From Methanofollis sp. W23 (GTDB lineage: Archaea; Halobacteriota; Methanomicrobia; Methanomicrobiales; Methanofollaceae): a DNA stretch of 64,000 nt. Below, piece after piece: positions 9,620 to 56,403 of the stretch (positions are counted from its first letter, which is position 1; every line of letters starts with the position of its first letter). The notes beneath the pieces are model-generated. The model had not been told where the DNA came from and did not search any database. It was given only the letters and a program-made list of their open reading frames with translations. A program made the translations under genes and the position numbers. The stretch is from contig NZ_JAGGMN010000001.1 of assembly GCF_017875325.1 (NCBI RefSeq), positions 1-64,000 of the forward strand, in the 5' to 3' direction.

Positions 9620-9671
9620 ATGTAAGTCTTAATGGTAATTTCTGTAATTGTAAGGTGCTGATGGGGGTAAA

Positions 9672-10790: not shown

Positions 10791-11090
10791 GTGCTGTTGC
10801 ATATGTGGGTCCTCCTGTTGGTCATCTGTTTAGCCATGTTGTCACAGAATTGTATCATTTAATCGGGATCTCCGGTGAGATCTCATGAATATGCACGTTG
10901 TTAACCTGCAGAGAGGAGCCTCAGGTAGATCAGCACGTGCCTCTATGGGGCAAAGGTTGCGATCATGGTCCTCCCCTGTGAGAACAACATCAATGACCTC
11001 TGCAGAGTCCTTCTCGATCAAGATCCTTTTGGAACTTGCAGATTTTTGTATTGGCATTCGAAGGTATCGATTTTCATTAAGGGTTTTATT
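10787..11090 (+). pseudogene. Broken short reading frames of unknown origin
   Basis: An ATG overlapping the DUF354 stop opens a 33-residue frame ending at 10888; later in another frame a stretch with MVLPCENNINDLCR runs up to the next gene. Together they look like the debris of a gene lost between DUF354 and the amidotransferase, since intact neighbours here are tightly packed. No family is recognised. Composition shifts from GC-rich to AT-rich in this gap, so it may also be a cassette junction. Confidence 0.3.
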
Positions 11091-12233: not shown

Positions 12234-12239
12234 TTTGAG

Positions 12240-24958: not shown

Positions 24959-24959
24959 T

Positions 24960-26219: not shown

Positions 26220-26223
26220 AGCC

Positions 26224-27576: not shown

Positions 27577-29126
27577 GACGGAATCCTTCTTTGGCATACT
27601 CTAGGGAGGCATGAGCGGATCATCTCTCTCTCCTCTGGATGAAGAACGATATTCAGTATAAACAGCAGATACGCTACCGTAATCCCACATCCTGCCAGGA
27701 TGAGAGTTGGAAGCGTAGAAATGGTGAAGACCGATAATGTTGCAATCCCAGCCACGGACAAGACAAGTACTCCTCCAACTCCATACAACATCTTTTTCAG
27801 GTAGGTGAATATGGGAATTTGTATGACTGAGGCAATAAAGAGTGGATTAATCACTCCGTATCGGAGAAGGAGGGTGATGAGTCCTGCCAGGGCGACACCA
27901 TACATGCCGATATCAAAGATATGGGGGAGAAGTAGTGCCAATATGATATTTAGAAAACCCATAGGTAGTGTCAGGATTACTAAACTTCGAACACGATTAT
28001 AGGCTACTGTAATTGGAGATATGCAGGAGACCATTATCTGCAGAATGACTGGTGCAACACAAATCCAGATGAGTGGAGCAAGATGTGCAAATTCTACACC
28101 GACCCAGATTGTTAGGAGTTGAGATGAGAATATGCAGACTAATGCAATCGGTAATGCCATAAAAAGCCCTACAGTCTTAATCGTCGTCGATGTAAAGTGA
28201 ATCAATCCTTCTCGATCCCGTTTGGCATAATATGAATATGTCATCGGTGTGAACAAATTTGTGACTAAGGCTGCAATGCTTATCAGGAGCGTACTCCATA
28301 TCGCAGCAAGAGAATATTCAGTGCCTGCCACCTCCCCAAATAATTTATTTACTATGATCAGAGCGATCTGGGTATTGAGAAGTAAACCAATACTGTTGAT
28401 TAAGACCCACGCTGACATTCCTCCGATTTCCCTGAGTCGTGATCGTACAAATGATGCTGGTGAGATCTTCAGATAGGGGCATGTCCATTTTGAAAGAATG
28501 AATGCCATTGCAAATGTTACAACAGCAGATCCTGCATAGGAGAGGCCAACCATTACCAGCGACGGACCTAGGCACAAGAATAAGGTTAAAACCAGCACAA
28601 GTTGTGTGAAGAGATTGGTGCAATTCACATAATTCCGCAGGTCCAGCCTGTTATATGCAAACAGGATTACCATGAAGTTGCTGCTCCATGCACGAATGAG
28701 CACCGAGCCAAATATAAGAGCAAAGAGCAGGAATACATCTATTGCTGACTGGTTGCCTATATTGAAAAATACTGGAGCATACCATGCTGCTGCGAGAGCA
28801 AAGGGTATCAGAAGTAGGATGACACCCAGTGTGCCAAACAATGCTGTGTTGAATGTCTCATTTGCACGCTTTAAATCTGCACGCTGGAGATCAATCGTCA
28901 GAAAACGGGAAATTGACGTGTTTAGTGAGTCAATGACCAGAGTGATGTAACTTGTAATTGAGGTGGCTAAGGGTATCAGACCATATGCTGCTGTTCCCAG
29001 TGTGTCCAAGAAAAAGGGGACCAGCATCAGGCCAATGGCAATATTTAGAACAAAGTAGATGATATTTGATATGAAATTCTTCGGGAGTCTCTGCGTGAAT
29101 TTGATATCAAGGGGGGTTGTGCTCAT
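27564..29126 (-). CDS. Polysaccharide flippase (Wzx/MATE-like)
   Basis: A 520-residue protein with 12-14 hydrophobic segments; the N-terminus LPKNFISNIIYFVLNIAIG and AAYGLIPLATSITSYI, SRFLTIDLQRADLKRAN are typical of the oligosaccharide flippase family that moves lipid-linked repeat units across the membrane. The AT-rich sequence contrasts with a GC-rich, truncated paralogue at 30857-31375 that matches its first 160 residues. Downstream it overlaps the FrhB-like gene. Confidence 0.9.
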   Translation of the reverse strand: MSTTPLDIKFTQRLPKNFISNIIYFVLNIAIGLMLVPFFLDTLGTAAYGLIPLATSITSYITLVIDSLNTSISRFLTIDLQRADLKRANETFNTALFGTLGVILLLIPFALAAAWYAPVFFNIGNQSAIDVFLLFALIFGSVLIRAWSSNFMVILFAYNRLDLRNYVNCTNLFTQLVLVLTLFLCLGPSLVMVGLSYAGSAVVTFAMAFILSKWTCPYLKISPASFVRSRLREIGGMSAWVLINSIGLLLNTQIALIIVNKLFGEVAGTEYSLAAIWSTLLISIAALVTNLFTPMTYSYYAKRDREGLIHFTSTTIKTVGLFMALPIALVCIFSSQLLTIWVGVEFAHLAPLIWICVAPVILQIMVSCISPITVAYNRVRSLVILTLPMGFLNIILALLLPHIFDIGMYGVALAGLITLLLRYGVINPLFIASVIQIPIFTYLKKMLYGVGGVLVLSVAGIATLSVFTISTLPTLILAGCGITVAYLLFILNIVLHPEEREMIRSCLPRVCQRRIPSWLL

Positions 29127-40106: not shown

Positions 40107-40820
40107 CTACAGACCCTTCAATATGGCATGATACCGGTATTCATAATACATGGACGAGACAAATTCAGCACTCAATCCATTTCTCTTTGCGATCTCCTGT
40201 ATGGTCTGGGGATGGTGGGCATAACCCACCGTATATTCTGAAAGCCCTCTGAGTGTGCGTCTGATCATTTCCGCCTTCATGGCCGAGTATTTCCAGGCCA
40301 GGATTGCCGTACCTGGGCCGCGTCTGGCCTCACGATTGATGACGCCCAGATGAAAGAGCGGATAGATGCGCGGGTCAAGGCCATCAAAAAGGACAATCGA
40401 TCCCTCAGGACTGAGCCTGTCCTGTGCCTGGATGATAAAATTCTCCAGACGGTCTTGATCAAGGCACTGGATGACCCCGGCGGAAGTAATCCGGTCAAAT
40501 GTATCCCCGTCAAGGTGCTCCCACATGGTCCGGTCGTCTGCCTCTATCAGAGTCACATCTGAGACCCCGAATTTTTCCAGGCGCCTCTCTGCACTTGCAA
40601 GCATTGACGTGGAAAAATCGACGCCGACCACATCAGAAAAATTCTGGGTGTAATATACAAGGAGATCGGCCGAACCACACCCAAAGTCAAGCAGGGATCT
40701 CCCATGTTCCAGATGAAAGAGTTTCTCTCTTGCTTCTTTCTGCAAGAATCTCTCTTCCTGCCGTCGGTGTCCCCCGTTATTACGTTTATTCCAGTATCCC
40801 TGCCAAGGAAGCATACTCAT
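40107..40820 (-). CDS. Class I SAM-dependent methyltransferase
   Basis: A 237-residue protein with the Rossmann motif I RSLLDFGCGSADLLV, acidic post-I VVGVDFSTSML, motif II-like LIEADDRTMWEHL and DRITSAGVIQCL. It probably methylates a sugar, lipid or small molecule in the glycan neighbourhood; the substrate is not predictable. The start MSMLPWQGYWNKR at 40820 lies about 20 bases downstream of a strong TATA box, so the mRNA is likely leaderless. It is separated from the next operon by 277 bases. Confidence 0.87.
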   Translation of the reverse strand: MSMLPWQGYWNKRNNGGHRRQEERFLQKEAREKLFHLEHGRSLLDFGCGSADLLVYYTQNFSDVVGVDFSTSMLASAERRLEKFGVSDVTLIEADDRTMWEHLDGDTFDRITSAGVIQCLDQDRLENFIIQAQDRLSPEGSIVLFDGLDPRIYPLFHLGVINREARRGPGTAILAWKYSAMKAEMIRRTLRGLSEYTVGYAHHPQTIQEIAKRNGLSAEFVSSMYYEYRYHAILKGL

Positions 40821-41097: not shown

Positions 41098-43278
41098 TCA
41101 CCCCCAGACACTCGAACCTCCATTTGATAAGATCTTATGTTTTTTCTCGAAGATGTAGGTATATTCCGAGACCGGCCTGGAGATCCCGTCATAATCGATC
41201 AGGTCCCCGTCGACGACCGAGAGGTACCGGAAATACACATAACTCTTCTTTGGCACCCACCCGTACTGGATGAACGACGACACATCTCTATGGTTCATGG
41301 GCCCCTGGCTCATCAGCCGTGAGACCCCGCACCCGTCAGAAAAGACCTTGAGTTCTGGGTCCATGTGCTCTTTCAGCCATTGTGCACTGCTTGATTCAGA
41401 GTCGTGGACATATTTCATCTCGTACTGGGGTCCCTCGTCGTGAAAGAGGAGGTCCCGGTGGTCCCCCGAGACCGTGTGGACCACGCCGCTGACCGAATAA
41501 AAATAGGGGACCATCAGGATGAGCAGGATGACGAGCGAGGCCTGGAACCGGTAATACGGGGAGAGGGCGTACCTGGCCTGGACCCTGCGCCTGCCCGAGG
41601 AGCAGACCATCAGGACCCTGGAGATTGCGAGTCCTCCCGCGACAAAGAGGACCGAGAGGAGGATGTTTGAGACCGGGAAGACGCGGGAGACCTCATATCC
41701 GGCCGAGACATAGGGCATGACGATCATCAGTCCGAGGATCAAAAACGAGATGATCACGAGCGTGATGAACAACCCTCCTGCCGGGCGTTTTTCAATGGAG
41801 GTGCGGATACATCTCTTCTGGTCGGCGACATTCTCCCTGAACCTGGCAAGAAGAGAGAGCAGCCCCATCCCGATATAGCCGAGAGTGGCCCAGGTCAGCA
41901 TGAGTTGCACACGGTACGGCCCTCCTTTCTCCACGGCCGCGGACCCGAAGAGTTTCTGGACATCGTCTCCGCGCGCTGTCGGGTCCAGGAAATAACCTGA
42001 AGAGTCGACAGTCTTGTGAATAAAGTCGACGAACATCTCGGCCGGGACCACGGTGACCAGGGCATACCAGAGATACATCAGCCCGAAAAAGTATGCCAGG
42101 ACGTCAAGGGGAGGAGACGGCCTGAGCGGGTACCTGACCGCGAGCACCTGGGTGCCGATCCTGGCCAGCAGCAGGATAAAGAAAAAGAGAAACGAGGTGG
42201 AATAATGTGAAAATACCGCCCCGGCGATGAAGAGGTAGAGGAAGACCCGTGCCTTGAGGGGAGGGATCTCCCTGGACAGGAGCACCATGAGGGTGAGGGC
42301 CAGGAACAGGATGGCGATGAAGGTTCTCGCATTCGAGGCGGTCGAGAGGAACTGGGCCTGGAACATGAAAAAGACCGCGGCGAGAAAGGCATAGACCTCC
42401 TCGAAGTAGCGGCTCGAGATGAGATAGACGACCAGGGGGGCGACCGAGAAGATCAGGCAGAACAGTACCTTGAAGAGCATCTCTGGCGGGGGGTTGAGGA
42501 GGAGGTGATAGACCGCCGGGAGTATCGAGGTGCTCAGGCAGGAGTCGAGCTGCGCACTCCCGACCACCGACCAGTGGGCGTTCTCCAGGGTCATCATGAA
42601 GGTATAATATTCCATATGCGAATCGGTCCCGATGATATGGTTCGACCTGAGGGCAAGCATCAGGAGCAACGAGATGCTCAGGCTCAGGATCATGACAGGA
42701 AATATCCCGCGAGAGAGGCGGGCACGGGCGGACGCGACCACCCCGGCAAGGACCGGGACAGCGATCAGGACGGCGATCAGCATCCGGTGGTCCCCGGTCG
42801 TGTTCATCAGGTCCATCCCCACGATGATGAGGGCGGGGAGGAGTGCCGCCGGGATGAGCAGGACCTTGTCGGCGGGGGTGAGCCGCGGGACCTGGACCTG
42901 GATCTCCTGGCCGGCATTCTGCCAGTACCATGCCAGGGCGAGCCCGATGATGAGAAGGTCCACGACATCGATGAGGAGGCGGGGGCTCAGCGGGGTGGAC
43001 ACCCCGAGGACGAGGAGGAAGACCTGGTTGTACACCAGCCCGCCCGCGAGCATCAGGGCGATGCTGGTCCCGAAGGCGAGCACGGCCTTCTCCAGGAACC
43101 CGACGTCCTTTAACCTGAGCAGGGCGACGATCAGCCCGCCAGGCAGGAGAGAGAGGACAAAAAACCCGATGACCTGCCTGAAGACCGGGAGGTCGAACCT
43201 GGTGCTGAGGTCAAAGAGGATGACGCAAGCGATCACTCCAAAAAGGACGGTCTGCGCCTTGAGTTTCATCGTCTTCAC
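41098..43278 (-). CDS. DUF2206-type polytopic membrane protein (GT-C-like)
   Basis: 726 residues with about fourteen to sixteen membrane helices and a C-terminal extracytoplasmic domain of about 130 residues (from around GDHRDLLFHDEGPQYEMKY). The acidic loop IIGTDSHMEYYTF after the early helices resembles the catalytic loop of GT-C enzymes. The family is typical of methanogens and found with S-layer or exopolysaccharide genes. It may transfer a lipid-linked sugar or polymerise repeat units outside the cell. Last gene of the seven-gene operon; its start overlaps the preceding glycosyltransferase stop by 4 bp. Confidence 0.82.
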   Translation of the reverse strand: MKTMKLKAQTVLFGVIACVILFDLSTRFDLPVFRQVIGFFVLSLLPGGLIVALLRLKDVGFLEKAVLAFGTSIALMLAGGLVYNQVFLLVLGVSTPLSPRLLIDVVDLLIIGLALAWYWQNAGQEIQVQVPRLTPADKVLLIPAALLPALIIVGMDLMNTTGDHRMLIAVLIAVPVLAGVVASARARLSRGIFPVMILSLSISLLLMLALRSNHIIGTDSHMEYYTFMMTLENAHWSVVGSAQLDSCLSTSILPAVYHLLLNPPPEMLFKVLFCLIFSVAPLVVYLISSRYFEEVYAFLAAVFFMFQAQFLSTASNARTFIAILFLALTLMVLLSREIPPLKARVFLYLFIAGAVFSHYSTSFLFFFILLLARIGTQVLAVRYPLRPSPPLDVLAYFFGLMYLWYALVTVVPAEMFVDFIHKTVDSSGYFLDPTARGDDVQKLFGSAAVEKGGPYRVQLMLTWATLGYIGMGLLSLLARFRENVADQKRCIRTSIEKRPAGGLFITLVIISFLILGLMIVMPYVSAGYEVSRVFPVSNILLSVLFVAGGLAISRVLMVCSSGRRRVQARYALSPYYRFQASLVILLILMVPYFYSVSGVVHTVSGDHRDLLFHDEGPQYEMKYVHDSESSSAQWLKEHMDPELKVFSDGCGVSRLMSQGPMNHRDVSSFIQYGWVPKKSYVYFRYLSVVDGDLIDYDGISRPVSEYTYIFEKKHKILSNGGSSVWG

Positions 43279-44441
43279 CCCCTGACCGCCTGCAGGATCT
43301 TCTGGTACTGCCCGACCGCCGCTTCATAGGTATAGCCCTCTTCGATCGTCAGGCGCGCCGCCCTCCCGATCCCTGCCAGGTCTGCATGGCCCCGCACCTG
43401 CTCCAGGCACTGCCGGAGGGTCGCAGGGTCGTTGTCAGGGGCGATGAACCCGGTCACTCCGTCGGTGATCAGGTCAGGCACCCCGCCGACCGGGGTTGCC
43501 AGCACGACGCACCCGCAGGCCATCGCTTCGAGGACGATGTTGGGGAGACCTTCCTTGAACGAAGGGACGACCAGCACCTGGATCTCGTTGAGGTGCTCGT
43601 GCAGGCGGGTATTCTCCACCCATCCAGGGAGGTCGATGCGGGCGTCCATCCCGGCCCTGGCGACCCTCGTCTCGACCTCCTCCCTGAGCGGGCCGTCGCC
43701 GATGACCACCGCCCTGCCCTCGTGTGCCGCCAGGACGGCGATAAGCGCCCTGACATATTCCCTGGTCCCCTTCTCTTCTGAGAACCGCCCGACATACCCG
43801 AAGACATATTCCCGCGCCGCCAGGGGCTTTTTTGGCGTAAACCTGGCCGTGTCCACGTACAGGCTCCCTGGAAAGGTCTTGTGGGGGTGGCGGGTGAGGT
43901 CGTAGAGGTCGATGAAGGCCGGGCTTTCAGGGACGATCGCGTCGGCCGCCGCATAGGTGACCGCCTCGATACACCGGTACAGGAAGACGAGTGCTGGGTT
44001 CTTCTGGCGCCAGGAGCGCCGGATCACCTCTGATGTCCGGGCGTCGGTCCTGAGAAGAACCCGTTTGCCGGCGACCTTCGCGGCAAGCATTGGCAGCACA
44101 AAATAGTCGGCCCCGAAGGCGAAGACCACCACGTCCTGGTCCCGCGCCAGCCTGAGGATCTGGCGGGTGACCCGCGCCTGGTGCAGGGCCAGGTACCAGG
44201 CCCTGGCAAGATAGGGCCGTTCCACCTCCAGGTCAGGGACACGGACCAGGGCGCACTCGCCAGGAGGATAGGTCTTGTCAGGCTGCTGGGTGAGGATCCA
44301 GGTGACGTCCCTGGAGAGGGGGCAGAGGATCCTGACCAGTTTGAGGGCCGTATAATAGAGGTTCTGGTTCCTGAACCAGCGCGAGGTCACCAGGACCACG
44401 CGGGGCCGTACCTGGGTGTCTGTGATGGGGGGGCCGGGCAT
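43275..44441 (-). CDS. GT4 family glycosyltransferase
   Basis: 388 residues; GT-B fold with VFAFGADYFVLPML in the acceptor half, FGYVGRFSEEKGTREYVRAL and the donor-site segment VVPSFKEGLPNIVLEAMACGCVVLATPVGG. Its ATG overlaps the stop of the phosphatase-family gene by one base (TAATG) and its own stop overlaps the next start by four. Donor and acceptor unknown. Confidence 0.9.
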   Translation of the reverse strand: MPGPPITDTQVRPRVVLVTSRWFRNQNLYYTALKLVRILCPLSRDVTWILTQQPDKTYPPGECALVRVPDLEVERPYLARAWYLALHQARVTRQILRLARDQDVVVFAFGADYFVLPMLAAKVAGKRVLLRTDARTSEVIRRSWRQKNPALVFLYRCIEAVTYAAADAIVPESPAFIDLYDLTRHPHKTFPGSLYVDTARFTPKKPLAAREYVFGYVGRFSEEKGTREYVRALIAVLAAHEGRAVVIGDGPLREEVETRVARAGMDARIDLPGWVENTRLHEHLNEIQVLVVPSFKEGLPNIVLEAMACGCVVLATPVGGVPDLITDGVTGFIAPDNDPATLRQCLEQVRGHADLAGIGRAARLTIEEGYTYEAAVGQYQKILQAVRG

Positions 44442-45952
44442 TATGTTCCCCCCTTCTCCTCAGGAGAAAAGACGCTCGTCCCGTCGTCCCCCCCGGTCCC
44501 TGGCACCCCCAGGATGTCGAGGACCGTGGGGCTGATGTCCATGAGGCCCAGGTGCGTCCTGGCAGGGCGGCGGGGGTCAGGGAGGCTGAGGAAGAAGACC
44601 GGGGTGTCGCCGCGATGGGAACCAGGATAAAAACTGTGGGTGGAGGAGGTGGAGATGACCGGGCCTTCGATCTCCCAGCCCGCGCCCAGGCCCTCTTTCA
44701 GTTTGAAGAGGATGTCAGGGTAGCGGTCGATGAACTCGCCGGCATACAGGGCCTCGCGGGTGGTCACCCACTCGAAGACCGGGTCCCCGGTCGAGGGGTG
44801 GGTCCAGGCCTGGAGGAGAGAGAGGATCGCCGCCCTTGCCTCGTCGTAGTCCTGGCCGTTCTGGAGGTGCGCTCTCTCGATGAGAATCCCGCCATAATTG
44901 TAGGCCTTGATCCCTGAGAGGTCGGTGCACCTGGCAACGGTCCGATCGAAATCGATGGACGTAGGGGTGGTGTACAGGTCTTTGATCCCCGGGTGCCTCC
45001 TGAGCAGGCGGAGTGCGGTCCCCCGCAGCCCTGTCCTCTGGACGAGGTCGGCCGCCGCCCGCTTCGCCTTCTCGCCGGTCCGCAGGAAGGGGGTGACGGC
45101 CCCTTCCCGTGCGGCGAGGAATCCTGCGGTCCGCAGGATCTCGTTGACATTTACCAGCCTGATCGGGCGCATCATGTGGCCGTGGTCGCTGACCACCATC
45201 ACCGCCATCTCGTCTCCGGCGGCGGCAGTCAGGGTGCCGATGGCGGCGTCGTAGCGCCGATAAAAGTCGCGGATGGCATGACGGTAGGGGTTGTCCTCTC
45301 CAGGGAAGGTGGGGTCTGCCGGGTCGCAGAAGTTCCAGAAGATGTGCTGGACAAAGTCCAGTGCCGACGAGTACCAGAAGAAGAGGTCCCAGGGCTCTGA
45401 GCCGAGCAGGTGTCTGGCACATGCGACTTCGGCGTCCACCACCCCGCCGAGCCGGTCCAGGAAGGTCTGGTACTCGGGCCCTGAGTCAGGGATGCGGGTC
45501 GGCATCAGAAGCCCGGTCGCCTCGGTCCCGAGGTCGAGGGGTGCAGGAAAGGTCTCGACCTGGTCGTTGGCCGGGCTCCTGGCGACCATGGCCCCGTGGA
45601 CCGGCCAGACCGGGAAGCCGATATGAGGGGTGACGACGCAGACCCTCCTGCCCGCGGCCCCGGCCGTGTCCCAGAAGGTGCGGCCCCTGAGCAGGGACGA
45701 GTCAAGGTGATTGCCCAGGTAGATCGAGGTCTTTTCCAGCGGGTCGACGAAATGCACCACCCCATGCCTGGCCGGGTTCTCGCCGGTATGGATGCTGGCC
45801 CATGCGGTGTCTGAGTCGGGCGGGAAGACCGAGTGAAGAGAATACGGAGATGAACGCGCCTTCATCGCCTGCAGGGCAGGCAGGTCGTCGATGAACTGGT
45901 CGACCAGTCTGGCGTCCATGCTGTCGATCCCGAGGACCAGGAGCCGCGTCAT
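44441..45952 (-). CDS. Alkaline-phosphatase-superfamily protein (type I phosphodiesterase-like)
   Basis: 503 residues. The first metal-binding Asp is in LLVLGIDSMDARLV, the nucleophile Thr probably in DTAWASIHTGENPARHG, and later metal ligands in AVMVVSDHGHMMRPI and SFYPGSHRGDTPVFF. There is no signal peptide, so it likely acts in the cytoplasm or on the inner membrane face. In glycan clusters such proteins may add or remove phospho-groups or act as phosphoglycerol or nucleotide-sugar hydrolases. It overlaps its kinase-like neighbour by 4 bp, suggesting related substrates. Confidence 0.85.
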   Translation of the reverse strand: MTRLLVLGIDSMDARLVDQFIDDLPALQAMKARSSPYSLHSVFPPDSDTAWASIHTGENPARHGVVHFVDPLEKTSIYLGNHLDSSLLRGRTFWDTAGAAGRRVCVVTPHIGFPVWPVHGAMVARSPANDQVETFPAPLDLGTEATGLLMPTRIPDSGPEYQTFLDRLGGVVDAEVACARHLLGSEPWDLFFWYSSALDFVQHIFWNFCDPADPTFPGEDNPYRHAIRDFYRRYDAAIGTLTAAAGDEMAVMVVSDHGHMMRPIRLVNVNEILRTAGFLAAREGAVTPFLRTGEKAKRAAADLVQRTGLRGTALRLLRRHPGIKDLYTTPTSIDFDRTVARCTDLSGIKAYNYGGILIERAHLQNGQDYDEARAAILSLLQAWTHPSTGDPVFEWVTTREALYAGEFIDRYPDILFKLKEGLGAGWEIEGPVISTSSTHSFYPGSHRGDTPVFFLSLPDPRRPARTHLGLMDISPTVLDILGVPGTGGDDGTSVFSPEEKGGT

Positions 45953-46614
45953 CTCCCCCCTCCTGCGTGGCCGATGACGGCCGCCCTGATCTCGTCGAGT
46001 GGACGCGTCCCGTCGAGGACGACCGCATCGATCGCCTCGGCCGCCCTGAGGTAGAGGTGCCGGCGCTCGCGCAGGTACTCGACCGACGGGGTATCGGTCT
46101 TGCGCGCCAACGCGACCTCCTCGGGGAGGTCGATGAGAAAGGTGAGGTCAGGGCTTGGAAACCGGTCCAGCATCCTGTGTATCGTCGACCTGATCGCCTC
46201 CTCAGAGTACTGGAAGTCGACGGCAAGATCGGTGAGCACGGTGTCCATGACATAGCGGTCGCAGATGAGGGTGCGCCGCCTGAAGGCGACCGGGAGGGAG
46301 ACCTGGACGAGGAGTTGAAGGGTGTACTCCCAGAGGGCGAGGCGCTGGTACAGGGTCGCAAGCACGGTGTGGTCCCTGGATGCCTGCTGTTTGGACCCGG
46401 CGTACTCTCCATAGTTGGAAAAGGCGTCTTTGTCCCTGAAAAAGAAGAGACGCCCGAGATACATCACCGGCCTGAGAAGCACGGGCTGGTAGCGTCCATA
46501 TACATATGCGGCATCAATGCCGCGGCTCTGCAGTTCTTCGACGAGGTCTCGTGCCAGCGTGGTCTTGCCGGACCCGTCGATCCCGGTGAAACAGATGATC
46601 GTTCCTTTTCTCAT
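45949..46614 (-). CDS. Thymidylate-kinase-like P-loop kinase
   Basis: 221 residues. Walker A is CFTGIDGSGKTTLARDL, the DRY motif is LICDRYVMDTVL, and the lid-side FLIDLPEEVALARK follows, as in dTMP kinases. It is embedded between a glycosyltransferase and a phosphatase-family gene with 4-bp overlaps on both sides, which is odd for a housekeeping kinase. A role in phosphorylating a glycan, polyprenol or sugar nucleotide precursor is conceivable but unproven. True dTMP kinase activity cannot be excluded. Confidence 0.82.
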   Translation of the reverse strand: MRKGTIICFTGIDGSGKTTLARDLVEELQSRGIDAAYVYGRYQPVLLRPVMYLGRLFFFRDKDAFSNYGEYAGSKQQASRDHTVLATLYQRLALWEYTLQLLVQVSLPVAFRRRTLICDRYVMDTVLTDLAVDFQYSEEAIRSTIHRMLDRFPSPDLTFLIDLPEEVALARKTDTPSVEYLRERRHLYLRAAEAIDAVVLDGTRPLDEIRAAVIGHAGGGR

Positions 46615-47621
46615 TGCATCTCCTCCCGCAGCCCGGTGTACAGCGCCGAGACCTCGCCGGCGACCAGGTCCCAGTCATAGGGGAGCACCATCTGCCTGGT
46701 CCCGACATGTTCCTCCTGTCTCTCCATCAGGCCCCTGACCGCTCCGGCATAGCCCTGCCCGTCCTCGACGATGGTCACTCCCTCGTGTTTTTCCAGAAAT
46801 AGGCTGACCCCGTCAAACCCGTGCGTGATCACCGGCAGGTCGCAGGCCATCGCCTCGAGAATAGTGAGCGGGAGAAACAGCGTCGTCCCGGGCGGGAAGA
46901 TATACCCGTCGGCCATCTGGTAGAGTTCTTCGATCCGCGCAAAATACCGGTGCCATACGATACATCCGGCCTGCCGCAACCGCTCGACAGCCCCAGGGTC
47001 CGCTCTGAACCTGGACCCCCCGGCGACCACCACCTGGCATGCAGGCACCTCTGCCTGGACCTGTTTAAGCACTGCAAGCCCGCGGTCAGGTTTCAGGTGG
47101 CCGACATGCAGGAGGACAAAACGGTCTTCTGGGAGACCATACTGCGCTCTCAGTGCCGCCTTCTGCGCCGGCGAGACCGGGGCAAACTTTGTGAGGTCGA
47201 CCCCGTGTGGGAGATAGGCGGTCCGCATTCTGGCCCTGGCAAGGAGGTCGCCGGCCTGTCTGGACTGTGTCAGCACCAGGTCGGGCGCCAGGGGAGGACC
47301 CAGGCGCTGGAACCAGGGACTGCCAAGGAGCGAGAGTCCATGGGGATGGAGTGCCGAGAGCACACATGACGGGTGGCCCTGGCAGAGCGATCTGGCGGCA
47401 CGCAACAGGATGAAACTGCGGACGGTCGGCGCCGAGATGCAGTGCACGACCTCGGGGTCGAAGCCCCGCAGGCGGTGCCAGAACCCGGGGGTATGGACGT
47501 CCTGCCCGTCGAGAGGGAGCACCTCGTGGGAGGGGGCCAGGTGGTGGGAGAGTCTTCCCGTGACATTCCGGTAGCCTTCGTCAGGATCGCCTGACAGTGC
47601 ACCGATCAGACATATCTTCAT
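46611..47621 (-). CDS. GT4 family glycosyltransferase
   Basis: About 336 residues starting MKICLIGALSGDPDEGYRNV; DLVLTQSRQAGDLLA in the middle, VLLHVGHLKPDRGLAVL and FPPGTTLFLPLTILEAMACDLPVITH in the donor domain. The ATG at 47621 overlaps the previous stop by 4 bp and is preferred over the ATG-like start at 47669. It is the third glycosyltransferase of the operon. Confidence 0.88.
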   Translation of the reverse strand: MKICLIGALSGDPDEGYRNVTGRLSHHLAPSHEVLPLDGQDVHTPGFWHRLRGFDPEVVHCISAPTVRSFILLRAARSLCQGHPSCVLSALHPHGLSLLGSPWFQRLGPPLAPDLVLTQSRQAGDLLARARMRTAYLPHGVDLTKFAPVSPAQKAALRAQYGLPEDRFVLLHVGHLKPDRGLAVLKQVQAEVPACQVVVAGGSRFRADPGAVERLRQAGCIVWHRYFARIEELYQMADGYIFPPGTTLFLPLTILEAMACDLPVITHGFDGVSLFLEKHEGVTIVEDGQGYAGAVRGLMERQEEHVGTRQMVLPYDWDLVAGEVSALYTGLREEMQ

Positions 47622-48799
47622 GCGATCTCCTGATACAGGGCTTCGGTCTGTTCTGCGACCTTTGCCCACGACCTCCCTTCCACCCCCGCCCGTGCCTGGC
47701 GCCCCATCGCCTCTCTCTCCTCATGGTTTGTGAGCACCCTGATCACCTGCGCCGCCAGGTCCTTTGCGTCCCCGGTCTTCGAGACAAGGCCGTTTTTTCC
47801 GTCCTGGACCAGGGCCCTGAAGACCGGGATGCTGCTCACGACCGCCGGCACCCCTGCGGCGGCGGCCTCGAGGACGGTAAGCGGGTATGCCTCTGCGTAC
47901 GAGGGGAGGACAAAGACGTCGGCGGCATGGTACAGGGCCGGTTTCTCGTCTTCCCTGACCACGCCGGTGAAGATGACCGAGTCTGCAATCCCCAGTGTCT
48001 CTGCGGTGTCCCTGAGTCTCTCCCCGAACGGTGTTGTCATGCCGGCGATCACCAGCCTGGCGTCTGGCACCGACCTGAGCACCGCCGGCATCGCCGAGAG
48101 CAGGACTGCCAGACCTTTCCGCGGCACGAGGTTTCCGAAGAAGAGGACGAGAGGGTCATTTTCAGGGAGGCCAAGTGCGGTTCTGCAGGCCACCTGTGGC
48201 GACCTGGTCTGGAACTCGGCAGGATTGATCCCATTCGGGATCACCCTGACCTTCTCCAGGTGCGGCCCCAGGTAGGGCGAAGACGCGATCATCTCGTCTG
48301 AAAGGGCGATGATGCGGGCACTGTGTGTGAAGGCGGGTTGCAGGTAGAGTTTTGTGTAGCCTGAGAGCAGTGCACGCCGCGCCAACCCCCCCGCCCCCCG
48401 GTCGGGGTCAAGATGGTGGGTGACGACCAGGGGTGTCCTGGTCTGTCGCGCCGAGCGGAGAGCGGCAATGGTGGCAGGCGGTGACCCGGCATGGAGGTGA
48501 ATGACGTCGGCGTCCCTGTCAGGGGGGTGGAAGAGATAGTCCAGGGAGATGTCGGTTTCGGCGAGTTTGAAATTTTTGCCATGCCTGAGGACGGCAATAT
48601 TCCGGTACCGGTCATGGAGGTCGTCCTGGTCTGCGGAGGTGGTGGAGATCACGACGTCATGCCCTTTCCGGTCCATCTCCAGGGCCAGGTGATAGACCAC
48701 TTCGCCGACGCCGCTTCTCACATAGTCTCCTCCGGGCGGGATCTCGTCGTTGAAAGGGCGTTTATAGGGAAAGTCTGTCGTATACATGATGATTTTCAT
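47618..48799 (-). CDS. GT4 family glycosyltransferase
   Basis: About 393 residues starting MKIIMYTTDFPYKRPFNDEI; glycine-rich SGVGEVVYHLALEM, VVTHHLDPDRG, then LVLFFGNLVPRKGLAVLL and the E-rich donor site VLPSYAEAYPLTVLEAAAAGVPAVVSS. The ATG at 48799 lies within the 4-bp overlap with the upstream gene; the longer frame to 48988 is not supported. Confidence 0.9.
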   Translation of the reverse strand: MKIIMYTTDFPYKRPFNDEIPPGGDYVRSGVGEVVYHLALEMDRKGHDVVISTTSADQDDLHDRYRNIAVLRHGKNFKLAETDISLDYLFHPPDRDADVIHLHAGSPPATIAALRSARQTRTPLVVTHHLDPDRGAGGLARRALLSGYTKLYLQPAFTHSARIIALSDEMIASSPYLGPHLEKVRVIPNGINPAEFQTRSPQVACRTALGLPENDPLVLFFGNLVPRKGLAVLLSAMPAVLRSVPDARLVIAGMTTPFGERLRDTAETLGIADSVIFTGVVREDEKPALYHAADVFVLPSYAEAYPLTVLEAAAAGVPAVVSSIPVFRALVQDGKNGLVSKTGDAKDLAAQVIRVLTNHEEREAMGRQARAGVEGRSWAKVAEQTEALYQEIA

Positions 48800-49932
48800 T
48801 TCCCGTTCACGACCTTCTGGTAGATCGACTCGTAGTTCTTCGACACTGTCTCCCAGGTGTATTTTGTCCTGACCAGGTTCTGGCCTATCCTGGAAAGCCG
48901 CTGGCTGAGGGCGTGGTCTCCAGAAACGGTCAGGATCGCTTCTGCAAGGGCCTGTTCGTCTCGCGGCGGGACCAGGGAGGCGCAGCACGAGAAGTGGTCG
49001 CGGACCCCGGGGATGTCGGTGGTGATGACCGGCAGCCCGAAATACATCGCCTCAAGGACGACCGTCGGGCAGACTTCTGAAAGCGAGGGGAGTACGAAGA
49101 GATCGGCATGACGATACAGGTATACGAGTTCGGCCTGGGTCACCGCCCCCATGAGAAAAACAGAATCTGATACGCCGAGTTCTCTGATCAATTCGGTGAA
49201 ATAGTCCTGGTCCTCTCCCTCGCCGACCAGGATGCATCTCAGGTCTGTGGTGGGGTCGGTCTTTTTGATGGTGGCCATGGCACGGATCAGCCATTCCAGC
49301 CCCTTTCGCCGGATAAGTCTCCCGACATAGAGAAGGATGAACCCGCTGGACGGCATGCCTGCCGGCGGTTCTTCTGGGACCGCATCAAGTTGTCTGGGGT
49401 CGACGGCGTTATGCACGACAAACATCTTGTCCATGGCATGGGGATGGATCGAGAGCACGTAGGCGCGGTCGTCGACAGAGTTTACCACGATCCCGTCGGC
49501 ACGGGCGAAGATGCTCCATCCGATAGTGAGGCTGTAGAGTCGTTCCAGGCGGTCCCTGATGTGGTCTCCAAAGATCAACCGTCCATGGCAGGTCAGGAGC
49601 ACCGGGAGGTCGTTGAACATCCGGCCAAGTGAGGTGGCGATTGCGGCGGTGCTATGTTCGTTGTGGGTGTGGACCAGGTCATAGTCTTTGTATTCCCTGG
49701 TAAGATGGAAAAAACCGGGCGTAAGTGGGTTGCGTAACGGCCGGGCCAGACACCGGTGTCTGAAGATCTGGACGCCGTCGATCTCGTCCATGCCGCGGAC
49801 TGCAGGGTAGTCTGAGGTGATCACGTCGACTTCATGGCCTCTCTGGATGAGAGATTTGCTCAGGTTGTGGACATATGACTCCTGCCCTCCATGGTAGGGC
49901 AGGTAGTATGGGACACATTGCAGGATCTTCAT
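48796..49932 (-). CDS. GT4 family glycosyltransferase (operon first gene)
   Basis: 378 residues: MKILQCVPYYLPYHGGQESYV with the N-terminal GG loop, LVHTHNEHSTAAIA, FILLYVGRLIRRKGLEWLI and FVLPSLSEVCPTVVLEAMYFGLPVITTDIPG. PimA/GtfA-like layout. It heads a coupled seven-gene unit running to 41098. No clear TATA box was seen directly upstream; the nearest candidates lie in the 50.2 kb AT-rich patch (AATATATTGCG near 50262). Confidence 0.9.
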   Translation of the reverse strand: MKILQCVPYYLPYHGGQESYVHNLSKSLIQRGHEVDVITSDYPAVRGMDEIDGVQIFRHRCLARPLRNPLTPGFFHLTREYKDYDLVHTHNEHSTAAIATSLGRMFNDLPVLLTCHGRLIFGDHIRDRLERLYSLTIGWSIFARADGIVVNSVDDRAYVLSIHPHAMDKMFVVHNAVDPRQLDAVPEEPPAGMPSSGFILLYVGRLIRRKGLEWLIRAMATIKKTDPTTDLRCILVGEGEDQDYFTELIRELGVSDSVFLMGAVTQAELVYLYRHADLFVLPSLSEVCPTVVLEAMYFGLPVITTDIPGVRDHFSCCASLVPPRDEQALAEAILTVSGDHALSQRLSRIGQNLVRTKYTWETVSKNYESIYQKVVNGK

Positions 49933-50761: not shown

Positions 50762-53700
50762 TCAGGACCTGCCTGACGCCCATTCGACGGCTTCGTCGAA
50801 GAGTTTCCATCCGTCTGTGGTCATGGAGTCTGCGACGAGGTCTGAGAGGAAGAACCCGACGCGGCGTGCCGGGGCGGTCATGCCGACCATCTCGTCGCCT
50901 TTGTCGTAGCCGAAGATGACCGCCTTGTCTGGCTGGCCGGCGACGGTGGCGACCTTCACGGCGTCTGAGGACGGGAGACCGTACATCTCCCAGCCTGCAG
51001 TGCCGGTGACCGTGACGGTACCGCTCAGTCCGCCGGCGAGTGCATGACCTGCATCGGCGATCAAGACCTGCGTCTGGTCTGCCTCTGCATAGTAGTCGGT
51101 GCCGCGAGAGCCCCCTGTCATCTTGAGGTCGTCATAGACCCAGGCCTCGCAGCTGACGACCGGGACAGCCACGTCGCGGAAGGTCGCGCCAAGGTTCGAG
51201 GTGCTGGAGGAGATGATCACGAGGTCCTTGCCGTCTGCGTCGGCGGCGGAGACCGCATCGTCATCCATGGCCATGACCATGTAGCCCTGCTCCTCGAGGT
51301 GGGCCTTCACCGCGGCGTCCCCGGCATTCAGGGAGGCGCTGTGCGTCACGAAGAGGACCGTGCCGTCACCCGGCGTTGTGGGTGGAGGCGTCGGTACGCC
51401 TGGCTCCTCAGTGGCCCATTCGACGGCTTCGTCGAAGAGTTTCCATCCGTCTGTGGTCATGGAGTCTGCGACGAGGTCTGAGAGGAAGAACCCGACGCGG
51501 CGTGCCGGGGCGGTCATGCCGACCATCTCGTCGCCCTCTTCGTAGCCGAAGATGACCGCCTTGTCTGGCTGGCCGGCGATGGTGGCGACCTTCACGGCGT
51601 CTGAGGACGGGAGACCGTACATCTCCCAGCCTGCAGTGCCGGTGACCGTGACGGTGCCGCTCAGTCCGCCGGCAAGTGCATGACCTGCATCGGCGATCGA
51701 GACCTGCGTCTGGTCTGCCTCTGCATAGTAGTCGGTGCCGCGAGAGCCTCCTGTCATCTTGAGGTCGTCAAAGACCCAGGCCTCGCAGCTGACGACCGGG
51801 ACAGCCACGTCGCGGAAGGTCGCGCCAAGGTTCGAGGTGCTGGAGGAGATGATCACGAGGTCCTTGCCGTCTGCGTCGGCGGCGGAGACCGCATCGTCAT
51901 CCATGGCCATGACCATGTAGCCCTGCTCCTCGAGGTGGGCCTTCACCGCAGCGTCCCCGGCATTCAGGGAGGTGCTGTGCGTCACGAAGAGGACCGTGCC
52001 CTCCTCATCTGGTGTCGGTGTCGGCGTTGGCGTTGGCGTTGGCGTTGGTGTGGGTGTCGGTGTTGGTGTGGGCGTTGGCGTTGGGGTCGGCGTGGGCGTC
52101 GTACCCGCGTCAAGCGACCAGGTGAGTGCCGCATCAAAGAGTTTCCACCCTTCGGGTGTCATGGAGGCGGCGGTGTTGTCGGAGAGGAAGAGCCCGACGC
52201 GGCGTGCCGGGGCGGTCATGCCGGCCATCTCGTCGCCCTCTTCGTAGCCGAAGATGACTGCCTTGTCTGGCTGGCCGGCGATGGTGGCGACCTTCACGGC
52301 ATCTGTCGTGGGGGCCCCGAACATCTCATAGCCTGCAGTGGTTGCCACGGCCACGGTGCCGCTCAGCCCGGCCGCCATCTCGTGTCCGCTGTCGACCACC
52401 TCGACCTGCGTCTGGGCGGCGACGGCCCCATAGTCCTTGTTGATCGACGTGCCGGTCAACTTCATATCGTCAAAGACCCAGGCCTCCCAGACCAGTGCCG
52501 GGACGGTGACGTCACGGAACGTGTCATAGACGCCATAGCCACAGCTCGAAGAGATCAGGACGACATCCTTGCCCTCTGCATCAGAGGTGGAAGACGCCCC
52601 GTCGTCGACGACCGTGACCGCGTAGCCGAGGTCTTCGAGGTGGGCCTTGATTGCCTGGTCACCAGAGTTCAGGCCGGCAGTGCCCGCGACCAGGAGGACA
52701 TTCTTGCCTGGGACCGGGGTGGGGGTCGGGGTTGGGTCTGGGGTTGGGATGGGTGTTGGGGTTGGGTCCGGTGTCGGGATGGGCGTTGGTGTGGGGGTCG
52801 GGGTTGGCCCGGTGTTCTCCACATCACACCCGACAAACGGCGTTCTGGCATCGTTCACGGCCACATTGTAGACCGAGACAAGGCCTTTCGAGGAGGCAAG
52901 GTTGTTGACGCCGATTGCATACCCCGAGATCGTCGAGTCCGCGATCGTGATCTCAGACGGGTTCTTGGCAAGCGAGTAGACGGTGACGCCTGCCGTGGAG
53001 CGAGGCGTGGAGGTGTCGATGGTCATCCCGCGGATCGCCACATTGTGCGTGGTGCCGGTCCAGATGTACACCGGGTCAGGGGAGTCTGTGATCGTGCAGT
53101 CCTCAAGGGTCAGCCCGGCCTCACCGATCGCGAGTACCCGCACGCCCTTCAGTGATCCTGTGTCTGTACACCCGGTGAGGGTCGCTCCGTCGGAGAAGTC
53201 GCACTGGTAACCGACGATGTTCCTTTCAGAGACACAATTTTCAAGATACGTGTTCTCGTTGACCAGATATCCTGCACCAAAGTCAGGCGAAGGTGCGCCG
53301 GACTTTTCTTTCTGGCCATTGTCACGGCTGATGCAGTTGATCATCTTGATGCTGCTCAGTGCCGGGGGAGGTTCGGCATGGAAGCCAGATTCCCAGCATC
53401 CTTCTGCGATACACCCGATGTACACGATGTTCTGGGCATAGTCAAGGTATTCTGCGACATCGAAGCCCACGTCCCAGGCCTCGCTGTACTGGTGGCTGGT
53501 GCCATAATACTGGTCATACTTGCCGCAGTTGATCGCCTGGCAGTTCTCGTACGTGATGTCTTTGACGGCCATTGGAGACCCGCCCCCATTGTGGACAAAG
53601 CCCCAGCGGTCGACGTCGATTGCATTACAATTAATAAACTGGATGTCTTCGAGCACCTCGTTGTAGGCATAGACCATGAAGGCCGCCATGTACGAGTTGT

Positions 53701-54142
53701 CCACATCATAGACCGTCACATTCTTGACGATGTTGTGGGACGTGCTGATGTACACCCGGCCGGTCCCGGTGATCCGGAAGTCTGAGAGGGTCACGTCATG
53801 TCCGGTGGTGAGTCCCACAGACCCTGATGAAATGAAGTGAAGGACGGTGTTCTCGTCACCTTCACCCTTCAGGGTCATGTAACTCCTGGGTTTGATGTTG
53901 CCGGTCAGGTGATAGGTGCCTTCTTTCAGGAGCACGCTCCCGCCCGTGGAGGGAAGGGCGGCAATCGCGGCGTTGATGACATTTTGATCGTCATTTCCTG
54001 TACATACATAGTCAGCCTGACTTTTTACTAATCCGCTGCTGTCGTTTGGAGCAACAACGAGCGAAAAGTCATCCATTGCACTCACCGGGCTCAATACGAG
54101 TATCGAGCACATGATGAGTATTAATTGCAGTCCTGATTTCAT
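50762..54142 (-). CDS. Secreted beta-helix surface protein with three repeated C-terminal domains
   Basis: About 1126 residues. A signal peptide (LQLILIMCSILVLSPVSA) leads into a right-handed parallel beta-helix, pectate-lyase-like (residues about 30-450), with typical rungs such as NVTVYDVDNSYMAAFMVYAY. Three domains of about 180-190 residues follow, each starting VLxVxxxxxLNxGDxAxKAHLE and ending PARRVGxFLSD...GWKLFD, joined by Thr-Pro repeat linkers. The fold of the repeats looks like a flavodoxin/ThuA-type alpha-beta domain; their function is unknown. Repeats 2 and 3 are nearly identical at DNA level (636-bp period). No C-terminal anchor is visible. ATG 54142 follows GGAG. Confidence 0.85.
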   Translation of the reverse strand: MKSGLQLILIMCSILVLSPVSAMDDFSLVVAPNDSSGLVKSQADYVCTGNDDQNVINAAIAALPSTGGSVLLKEGTYHLTGNIKPRSYMTLKGEGDENTVLHFISSGSVGLTTGHDVTLSDFRITGTGRVYISTSHNIVKNVTVYDVDNSYMAAFMVYAYNEVLEDIQFINCNAIDVDRWGFVHNGGGSPMAVKDITYENCQAINCGKYDQYYGTSHQYSEAWDVGFDVAEYLDYAQNIVYIGCIAEGCWESGFHAEPPPALSSIKMINCISRDNGQKEKSGAPSPDFGAGYLVNENTYLENCVSERNIVGYQCDFSDGATLTGCTDTGSLKGVRVLAIGEAGLTLEDCTITDSPDPVYIWTGTTHNVAIRGMTIDTSTPRSTAGVTVYSLAKNPSEITIADSTISGYAIGVNNLASSKGLVSVYNVAVNDARTPFVGCDVENTGPTPTPTPTPIPTPDPTPTPIPTPDPTPTPTPVPGKNVLLVAGTAGLNSGDQAIKAHLEDLGYAVTVVDDGASSTSDAEGKDVVLISSSCGYGVYDTFRDVTVPALVWEAWVFDDMKLTGTSINKDYGAVAAQTQVEVVDSGHEMAAGLSGTVAVATTAGYEMFGAPTTDAVKVATIAGQPDKAVIFGYEEGDEMAGMTAPARRVGLFLSDNTAASMTPEGWKLFDAALTWSLDAGTTPTPTPTPTPTPTPTPTPTPTPTPTPTPTPDEEGTVLFVTHSTSLNAGDAAVKAHLEEQGYMVMAMDDDAVSAADADGKDLVIISSSTSNLGATFRDVAVPVVSCEAWVFDDLKMTGGSRGTDYYAEADQTQVSIADAGHALAGGLSGTVTVTGTAGWEMYGLPSSDAVKVATIAGQPDKAVIFGYEEGDEMVGMTAPARRVGFFLSDLVADSMTTDGWKLFDEAVEWATEEPGVPTPPPTTPGDGTVLFVTHSASLNAGDAAVKAHLEEQGYMVMAMDDDAVSAADADGKDLVIISSSTSNLGATFRDVAVPVVSCEAWVYDDLKMTGGSRGTDYYAEADQTQVLIADAGHALAGGLSGTVTVTGTAGWEMYGLPSSDAVKVATVAGQPDKAVIFGYDKGDEMVGMTAPARRVGFFLSDLVADSMTTDGWKLFDEAVEWASGRS
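50775..52000 (-). repeat. 636-bp tandem duplication inside the surface protein gene
   Basis: CATTCGACGGCTTCGTCGAA occurs at 50781 and 51417, and about 590 bases that follow each are nearly identical, with only scattered changes. The duplication encodes the second and third C-terminal domains and is recent or kept uniform by gene conversion. Confidence 0.9.
52003..52110 (-). repeat. Hexanucleotide repeat encoding a (Thr-Pro)n linker
   Basis: Imperfect GTTGGC/GTCGGT units encode about 17 Thr-Pro pairs between domain 1 and domain 2. A second, shorter tract (52715-52812) encodes the linker after the beta-helix. Such tracts change length easily by slippage. Confidence 0.85.
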
Positions 54143-55005
54143 GGATGCTCCGTTAATTCGTGGATTTCTGGCGTGCTGTCTGGAATTTTGATGGAATGAT
54201 TGCACATAATCTGATCATTTAATCGGATATAAATTATTCCAATTTATATTTCAATCCCCTGTAAGTATTATGCAAAATATGATGGAATTTGGGTATAATT
54301 CGGGAATTATATAGTGCCCCTTAAATCTCGCGACTGATCATTTTTTCTCGAATACATCGTCATGCAGTCCTGGATGGGGGAAGGACGTGAATGGGGGCAT
54401 TAAAAATGAAGAATAACGCGCAAAACCGCGCTGCATCGAAATATGTCCGGTGTGGCGGTACAGGATCTCGTCCCCAGAATTTCAGGTCAATGCTCCTGGG
54501 GCGACCGCCTGAGACCGGTCTTTTGGCCCTGTCATGAGCCGATCTCAGGATCGTACTCATAAAATGCAATTTTTGGTTATGGAGGTCATCCAAACACTCT
54601 CCTGCTTTCTCACTCCCTGAAAATTCGTTACCCACCTATGGGTTCATGCCCTCCCCTACCACCGCGCCAGGGGCGCTGCGCCCCCTGACCCTCTGGGATG
54701 GCGAATGGGGCGGGAGGACAGAGTGATGATCGTGAAGACAGGATGCGGTTCCCCCGCCAATTTTCATTCGCGGGGGTGCGGGAGGCGGCCAGCCCCCCGT
54801 AGCGAGAACCATCAAGAGGCGATCTACAACGCCGGAATATCTGGAAGGAGGCGCTGAGGTCCGAGGAGATGCTCACTCCAGGAGCGATGTGGGGATATGT
54901 TCATCGAAAAATACTCTGTGCCGATGGCGTGAACCCCTGCCCGCTCTCCCGCCAAAAAAAGCCCGGCCCTGTAAGCCGGGGTTCAGGGCGGCGGTGAAAG
55001 ACGAC
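54143..55005. other. Intergenic region: promoter plus repeat debris
   Basis: The left part holds a TATA box for the surface protein gene (AATATAAATT on the minus strand, 54241-54250), with a leader of about 75 bases. From 54640 to 54900 lie GC-rich hairpin modules (CCAGGGGCGCTGCGCCCCCTG near 54665) and a copy of the GGAATATCTGGAAGG core. The gene downstream ends at 55006, preceded by a G/C-rich inverted repeat (GCCCGGCCCTGTAAGCCGGG, 54961-54980) that could act as terminator. Confidence 0.6.
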
Positions 55006-56403
55006 CTACAGCCCTCCCGCCTCAGGGAAGAGAGGGATCGAGGTGCCGGCGCACCCGATGCAGTCCTCTGTCGCCTCCCCTATGATGAGATTCTCCACCC
55101 TCACCTGTCCCCGTATCTCTGCCTCATTCTTCACCCCCAGGGCATACCCCTCTATCCTGGAGCCGGTGATCAGGATCTCGGCCGGGTCCTTTGCAAGGGC
55201 GTCGATGGTGATGGCAGGTGAAGGGTGCGGCGTCGCAGAGTGGATTGTCATCCCCTCGATCAGGACATTCCTGGTCGTGCCGGTCCAGATATAGACCGGA
55301 TACTCGGTAGCCTCGGTCTGGCACGAACGGAGTGTCAGGCCCTTCTCACCGATGCTGTGGATCCGAAACCCTTTTTCTGATCGCTCGTCCTTGCACTCGA
55401 CCAGGACACTCCCGTCCGCCGCCGAACAGTCGAACCCCACCAGGTTGTCGGCTGAAAGACATCTTTCCAGCGTTGTTTCCTCGTTGATAAGGAACCCCGC
55501 CCCGAAATCCGCAGTCCCTCCGCCACTCTTCTGTTTCTGACCATTATCTCTTGCCTCACACCCGATGAACCGGATCGAACGGAGCACCGTGTCGGGTTCG
55601 ACATGAAATCCCGATTCCCAGCATCCGCTTGCACTACAATCGATATAGGTGATATTCTCTGCCGATTGGAGTGATTCGGCAACGTCGAACCCGACATCCC
55701 AGGCCTCGGTGTGCTCCTGGTCTTCCCCATAATACTGGGCATATCGGCCACAGTTGACGGCCCGGCAGTCGGTGTAGGTGATGTCACGGACTCTATGTGT
55801 CGTCCCCCCGCCGTCATGGACGAATCCCCATCTGTCCCCGTCGACCGCCTCGCAATTGACAAATGCGACGTCTTCGATCACCTCGTCGTACGCATAGACC
55901 ATGAATGAAGCGATATAGGAATCATCGACCCCGGTCACTGCCACGTCCTCGACCAGGTTGTGCGAGGTGGAGATATAGACCCGGCCGCTCCCGGTCACGC
56001 CAAAACTGGAGAGGGTGACATTGTCTCCTCTGGTGAGCGCAACCGACGCCGAGCCTGAGAACTGAAGCACCGTGAGGTCGGCCCCCTCGCCGGTCAGGAC
56101 CGCATTTGCCCCTGGCCGTATCGAGTCAGAGCAATGATAGGTGCCTTCCACCAGGTAGACCTGCCCCCCTGATTCGGGGAGCGCTTCAAGGGCGGCATTG
56201 ATCTCGACCTGATCGTCGGTCCCGTCGCAGAGATAGGCAGCCTCGTTCTCATAGGGAGACCCGACCGGGGCGATGACGATCGCGTTCTCCAGTCTCTCCT
56301 CTCTCCCATACAGGATGATCTCTGAGAGAAGGTCGTAGCCCACCATCAGGGCGAGCACGACAATGATCAGGATGAGCAGTCCATGGGCCATATCAAGACG
56401 CAT
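55006..56403 (-). CDS. Membrane-anchored beta-helix protein, paralogue of the surface protein
   Basis: 465 residues. An uncleaved N-terminal membrane helix (LLILIIVVLALMVGYDLL) is followed by a right-handed beta-helix closely matching residues 30-450 of the neighbouring protein: DDQVEINAALEALPESGGQVYLVEGTYH style N-terminus, GRVYISTSHNLVEDVAVTG, EAWDVGFDVAE, CWESGFHVEP, DFGAGFLINEET and PVYIWTGTTRNVLIEGM. It lacks the Thr-Pro linkers and repeated domains. Pectate-lyase-like folds include lyases, epimerases and plain adhesins; conserved catalytic residues were not established. An ATG 12 bases downstream is an alternative start. Confidence 0.85.
   Translation of the reverse strand: MRLDMAHGLLILIIVVLALMVGYDLLSEIILYGREERLENAIVIAPVGSPYENEAAYLCDGTDDQVEINAALEALPESGGQVYLVEGTYHCSDSIRPGANAVLTGEGADLTVLQFSGSASVALTRGDNVTLSSFGVTGSGRVYISTSHNLVEDVAVTGVDDSYIASFMVYAYDEVIEDVAFVNCEAVDGDRWGFVHDGGGTTHRVRDITYTDCRAVNCGRYAQYYGEDQEHTEAWDVGFDVAESLQSAENITYIDCSASGCWESGFHVEPDTVLRSIRFIGCEARDNGQKQKSGGGTADFGAGFLINEETTLERCLSADNLVGFDCSAADGSVLVECKDERSEKGFRIHSIGEKGLTLRSCQTEATEYPVYIWTGTTRNVLIEGMTIHSATPHPSPAITIDALAKDPAEILITGSRIEGYALGVKNEAEIRGQVRVENLIIGEATEDCIGCAGTSIPLFPEAGGL

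Follow-up and report, generated by a model that had tools for sequence, protein, structure and literature searches.

What a thymidylate kinase (TMK)-like protein and an alkaline phosphatase (AlkP) superfamily protein are doing side by side among glycosyltransferase genes is the question raised by a seven-gene operon of Methanofollis sp. W23, located on the - strand at positions 41098-49932 of the analysed window (the whole stretch of 64,000 nucleotides opening contig NZ_JAGGMN010000001.1). A sequence-only reading of this window had proposed that the pair performs an undescribed phosphate step in glycan assembly. Such a step can reasonably be inferred, because the kinase is not the sole deoxythymidine monophosphate (dTMP) kinase of the genome and because kinase and AlkP protein are conserved neighbours among glycosyltransferases. 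Within the operon, we delineated a conserved unit made of an atypical family 4 glycosyltransferase (GT4c, 46611-47621, 336 aa), a TMK-fold P-loop kinase with a rewritten acceptor pocket (45949-46614, 221 aa) and an AlkP-superfamily protein (44441-45952, 503 aa). We tentatively favour the view that these three genes act as one module adding a phosphate-linked substituent to a surface glycan, through a chemistry that we infer; a published account of such a glycan phosphate step was not found in searches of one open-access library.

The simplest alternative would be an ordinary dTMP kinase with a bystander phosphatase next to it, in line with a PF02223 match above the cut-off (52.3 vs 27 bits), which together with the fold places the operon protein in the TMK-like P-loop kinase superfamily. 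This alternative is hardly credible, as the protein fell below the curated dTMP kinase model TIGR00041 (48.2 vs 83.25 bits) that another gene around C1:72694-73233, outside the window, passed (127.4 bits), and as its acceptor pocket is lost and its neighbours are conserved. A PF02223 search of the genome itself likewise matched C1:72694-73233 strongly (122 bits), and its match to the operon kinase was weak and split. The role of sole dTMP kinase of the genome is therefore ruled out by the second gene and the lost pocket.

This loss was measured by aligning 17 glycan kinases with 63 TMK rows (62 genome-contig rows and the organism's own Tmk) and 14 further kinase-like rows. The ATP side, shared with thymidylate kinases along with the fold, was kept throughout, the P-loop Gly and Lys, the DR motif and the LID Arg being present in 17/17 glycan kinases. 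By contrast, the four positions that we take to be the acceptor pocket of TMK, highly conserved in the TMK rows, were all replaced: the Arg and the Tyr (each in 62/63 TMK rows) and the Gln (60/63) occurred in none of the 17 glycan kinases, and the Ser position, occupied by Ser or Ala in all 63 TMK rows, was an invariant Asp in 17/17 glycan kinases and in 0/63 TMK rows. The 14 other kinase-like rows were mixed (5 with the Arg, 7 with the Asp); three Clostridia kinases among them carry the Asp and lack the TMK-type Arg, Tyr and Gln. The structure model of the kinase (pLDDT 88, predicted local distance difference test) had dTMP kinases as closest folds (4rzx, Z 20.9, root-mean-square deviation 2.1 over 185 residues) and a dTMP kinase match in Foldseek (E 1.4e-9), a likeness to be taken with caution since the alignment behind the model contained 15 TMK rows. 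In the tree, a branch at 100/99 separated the 34 kinases of module loci from 5 TMKs. Sequence and model indicate that the operon protein is a TMK-fold kinase, which most likely acts on another acceptor than dTMP.

Some kinases deserve separate mention. Those of two relatives look damaged, by an in-frame TAA (L075, ~10963-11487) and by a shift of reading frame within the P-loop region (L076, 9332-10003), possibly reflecting draft errors, and kinases G075a and G022.C31a are damaged-looking or carry draft errors. Five other kinases (L249, L250, L251, L252 and L253), with open frames of 310-341 aa, carry the motif DRYFYDYYIRFK in four cases and DRYFYDYFIRFK in one; profile searches found neither AlkP nor nucleotidyltransferase close to them.

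The distribution of the genes defines the conserved unit. Among 12 genomes of the family, all of one genus and including the organism's own, kinase and AlkP protein were found in the same six, adjacent in 6/6, and the other six, two of which are draft assemblies 81% and 88% complete, matched neither. Across a phylum sample of 294 genomes, the kinase matched in 21 and AlkP relatives in 47; all 12 AlkP places of at least 243 bits had a kinase place on the same strand no more than 3 kb away, and the 52 other AlkP places (at most 138.5 bits) comprised a single contig-end piece and two places with a kinase within ~7 kb. A single-protein scan of the genome-contig collection gave no matches. An alignment scan of the genome contigs, considered for the best 80 of 141 loci, returned mostly ordinary TMKs (62 kinase rows closest to the organism's own Tmk, 14 closest to a glycan kinase); the three best of these 80 belonged to two Ruminococcus metagenome-assembled genomes (MAGs) and one Clostridia MAG, each with GT4c, kinase and AlkP in this order. 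The one of these three that was scanned further (L128) is a capsule-type locus, with Wzz- and AAA_31-type genes. In addition, 295 genomes of a Clostridia order contained both genes in the same two genomes, adjacent in each, one being the query's own genome. The kinase-phosphatase synteny that the sequence-only reading proposed to check is thus conserved among glycosyltransferases, both across the sampled phylum and in Clostridia, and the conserved unit is GT4c-kinase-AlkP, among glycosyltransferase genes.

GT4c, the first part of this unit, matches PF13692 (49.7 vs cut-off 27 bits). Family 4 glycosyltransferases carry an E-x7-E motif, the first Glu of which is present in the three other family 4 enzymes of the operon and missing from GT4c in 19/19 aligned rows, the second Glu being kept in all; this absence suggests that the donor or the acceptor might be unusual.

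The AlkP protein, a match to PF01663 (119.9 vs cut-off 23 bits), has its metal-ligand and nucleophile residues complete: D10, D199, D256, H257, H446 and S/T47 were found in 16/16 aligned rows and H203 in 15/16. A membrane anchor was looked for, and no 19-residue segment exceeded a hydropathy of 1.6. The PDB sequences nearest its profile were mostly ENPP proteins (nucleotide pyrophosphatase/phosphodiesterase (NPP) branch of PF01663), which have the same metal ligands and nucleophile position; the operon protein differs from them by the lack of a hydrophobic segment, by its kinase and GT4c neighbours, and by a match that, in the best ENPP alignment, spans roughly the initial fifth of the profile (positions 8-104 of 494). 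Its structure model is poor (pLDDT 54.5, predicted template modelling score 0.63) and ties between choline sulfatase, phosphonate hydrolase, phosphoglycerate mutase and NPP (Z 15.7-16.5), and for both reasons these ties leave the substrate undecided. An in-frame TAG in some AlkP relatives, considered as a pyrrolysine hint, more likely marks the gene end, since the gene calls stop at match ends.

These affinities bear on two further alternatives. The ENPP neighbours of the AlkP profile, together with the dTMP kinase folds nearest the kinase (with 15 TMK rows in its alignment), fit a nucleotide housekeeping role, in which the AlkP protein would hydrolyse nucleotide by-products or sugar nucleotides and the kinase would rephosphorylate a nucleoside monophosphate. 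This role appears distinctly improbable, given the loss of the TMK acceptor-pocket residues and the expectation that such a need would be general, yet the kinase matched in only 21/294 and AlkP relatives in only 47/294 genomes. The tie with phosphoglycerate mutases (shared with phosphonate hydrolases, sulfatases and nucleotide pyrophosphatases) evokes instead a supply of precursors, the kinase yielding a sugar phosphate that the AlkP protein, as phosphatase or phosphomutase, would turn into a sugar-1-phosphate for an activated sugar. Sugar routes combining kinase, phosphatase and nucleotidyltransferase do exist. We nevertheless consider precursor supply unlikely: ties of a low-confidence model weigh little, and a sugar-1-phosphate nucleotidyltransferase was recognised in none of the 29 window proteins scanned (50 genes called in the window).

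What separates the remaining readings is the identity of the partner found beside the kinase in other loci. We surveyed 31 kinase loci (28 phylum-search places and three genus members) at E 1e-5 with the profiles NT5, PB, AP, GTc and KIN, of 6, 3, 16, 19 and 17 seed rows, respectively, whose seeds match by construction, the profiles having been built from loci later searched. An AlkP protein accompanied 16 kinases, a PF14907-like protein 10 (fused or within ~2.2 kb), another Pol-beta-like protein three, and neither two, and AlkP and nucleotidyltransferase co-occurred in 0/31 loci within ~4.5 kb. Across this survey and the later one described below, some PF14907-like hits were weak, those of G029, G836 and G830 scoring 29-32 bits. 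A strong GT4c match (at least 386 bits) stood upstream in 16/16 AlkP loci, 3/10 PF14907-like loci and 0/5 others, counts that exclude a few places where GTc was, at low score, the better of the two glycosyltransferase profiles (G284 76, G201 50, G003 35 and G051.C46 22 bits; in the later survey, G778 80 bits). No such nucleotidyltransferase was matched at E 0.1 in the 19 AlkP loci retrieved, among them the three of Clostridia, nor did PF14907 match in the organism's own genome, the same search being positive in 6/14 control genomes. Conversely, an AlkP search across 34 other loci gave a single relative (G167, 233 bits), besides two matches of 13 bits in L084. Five changes between the AlkP and nucleotidyltransferase states are required on the best tree, and the starred branches force at least three for the AlkP label. 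Furthermore, the kinase is fused to a nucleotidyltransferase-like domain in four cases, C-terminal of the kinase in L075 (4162-5922) and N-terminal in L081 (9152-10876), L089 (7843-9528) and L131 (3378-4625), and the D-x-D pair is invariant in 6/6 aligned PF14907-like rows.

This replacement bears on the plain opposition of kinase and phosphatase suggested by the gene pair, in which a phosphate added by the first would be removed again by the second, as a means of fixing chain length or attachment. That a kinase and a member of the phosphatase superfamily are constantly adjacent is compatible with such control or editing, which we regard as very unlikely, since in many loci the partner place is taken by a nucleotidyltransferase-like protein, not expected to remove a phosphate. 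Of the earlier proposal, the phosphate step thus stands as a reasonable inference from the conserved neighbours, and the opposition of the two enzymes becomes less likely. Precursor supply is affected too, as a Pol-beta-type protein replacing the AlkP protein would not perform the same step. Because AlkP and Pol-beta-type proteins can hold the same place, their common job would more likely be a transfer leaving a phosphodiester, rather than phosphate removal.

Several observations weigh against an interchange of partners around a dedicated glycan kinase, and against the phosphate-substituent module built on it. In one locus (G167), the kinase has a Pol-beta-like neighbour, with a distant relative of AlkP ~5 kb away, and exclusive partnering rests on three independent pairs, given by the starred branches (sign test p 0.25-0.5), a number with which this test cannot reach significance. 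The PF14907 cut-off was exceeded in one of four scanned fusions; for this family (NTP_transf_5, cut-off 31.2), L081 scored above (35.9), L075, L089 and L139 below (22.8, 25.9 and 29.7), and L073 and L074 gave no match, and the PF14907-like profile retrieved no nucleotidyltransferase from the PDB. The split between kinases and TMKs joins long branches, a warning of long branches meeting. The substrates and products of kinase and AlkP protein are themselves predictions, and EptA and LtaS, the AlkP-fold transferases invoked below, are membrane enzymes, unlike the operon protein with no membrane segment. Finally, a fresh survey (E 1e-3) of 349 and 340 genomes, taken from two phyla presumed distinct from that of the window (those to which a Bathyarchaeota and a Euryarchaeota MAG belong), yielded 21 kinase places, of which 10 had a PF14907-like partner (9 within 3 kb, some weak), two a Pol-beta-like one and none a nearby AlkP protein, nine being without a partner found (among them G596a, with a TMK-like motif, and G618, at a contig end). 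The association of kinase and nucleotidyltransferase is thus the wider one within our sample, and AlkP is a variant of the window's phylum and some Clostridia.

In the phosphate-substituent module that we favour, the kinase would phosphorylate an acceptor of the glycan pathway, which may be a small alcohol or sugar or else a sugar hydroxyl of the lipid-linked glycan. Using its Ser/Thr nucleophile, the AlkP protein would convert the kinase product so that the chain carries a phosphodiester-linked substituent, a task that the nucleotidyltransferase-like protein would perform in other loci. GT4c would act directly before or after this step, the other family 4 glycosyltransferases would assemble the chain and the DUF2206 protein would work at the membrane. 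Three precedents bear on the plausibility of this scheme by analogy. In pseudomycoidin, a kinase and a nucleotidyltransferase homologue (PsmK/PsmN) lead to a hexose on a phosphate, the review leaving open a host enzyme as the one adding the sugar; the gene combination and the hexosylated-phosphate product resemble our prediction, and PsmK/PsmN act on a peptide. Proteins of the LicD/fukutin type perform phosphodiester transfer, and lic-type phosphocholine decoration similarly places a phosphate-linked substituent on a glycoconjugate; here the kinase is of the TMK fold and the partner of the AlkP type. EptA and LtaS exemplify AlkP-fold transferases of phospho-groups. Whether these loci form a class of surface-glycan phosphate decoration spanning both domains, with a TMK-derived kinase and either AlkP or Pol-beta nucleotidyltransferase as interchangeable phosphodiester-forming transferases, is a broader and more doubtful proposition.

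If the module does what we propose, proteins that PF02223 similarity alone would call thymidylate kinases could be recognised as glycan enzymes, one step would be served by two unrelated folds, and a genetic handle on phosphate in the surface glycans of these organisms would become available, with a testable prediction for relatives of the window's organism and gut Clostridia.

The compactness of the operon raises a separate point. The overlaps of 4, 1, 4, 4, 4 and 4 bp (in order of rising coordinate), from which strict co-production of the seven genes had been deduced, were confirmed, although two of the six junctions hinge on start choice. We estimated the base rate of such junctions on 464 kb of the genome (the window and 20 stretches) with a simple purpose-made gene caller: a start overlapping by 4 or 1 bp was possible in 67/243 same-strand adjacent pairs, and -4 was the most frequent single junction. 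The run of six was the longest of this sample (next longest 3), with ~0.5 such runs expected genome-wide under a simple independent model; counting with called starts, 50/252 pairs overlap and the run shortens to 4. Among four close relatives, the junctions GT4b>GT4c>kinase>AlkP overlap in 4/4 and GT4a>GT4b in 3/4, and AlkP>GT4d and GT4d>DUF2206 do not overlap; in a more distant genus member (G003), these two outer junctions overlap, and GT4c>kinase and kinase>AlkP do not. Strict co-production is therefore unsupported, the commonest junction type being involved and two of six junctions being without overlap in the close relatives, and the run reads as dense packing, weak evidence of strict coupling.

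The remaining genes of the operon, whose identities (four family 4 glycosyltransferases, PF02223, PF01663 and PF09971, i.e. DUF2206) agreed with the Pfam scan, are GT4a (48796-49932, 378 aa), GT4b (47618-48799, 393 aa, ATGA overlap), GT4d (43275-44441, 388 aa, TAATG junction) and the DUF2206 membrane protein with 15 hydrophobic segments. The latter gene extends from 41098 to 43278 with a GTG start; the ATG at 43269, 9 bp downstream, is the likelier start, because it lies 5 bp past the preceding stop and behind gggggtga. DUF2206 proteins were also present in the sequence retrieved around three further kinase loci (L073, L076 and L087) and in the genus relatives L068, L070, L071 and L072; against the PDB, this protein retrieved only armadillo-type chains, mostly designed (E 0.24 and worse).

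The operon sits within a glycan region of the window. A methyltransferase gene (40107-40820) follows it on the same strand. An Rfam scan covering 124 kb detected one tRNA. A second glycan gene set occupies 8564-14557 on the + strand, with an AglJ-like transferase (below the family cut-off), two GT4-like genes and a WbuX-type N-acetyl sugar amidotransferase (above cut-off). Genes of GT2, polysaccharide pyruvyl transferase and FrhB/FdhB-like types adjoin one another at 23933-27597, and GT4, polysaccharide-export-type (PF13440) and asparagine-synthase genes lie at 57-61.6 kb. Upstream of the operon, two beta-helix/pectate-lyase-like proteins are encoded at 50762-54205 and 55006-56403, the larger with Pro-Thr linkers, and a similar protein of 1138 aa adjoins the operon of L068 in a different orientation.

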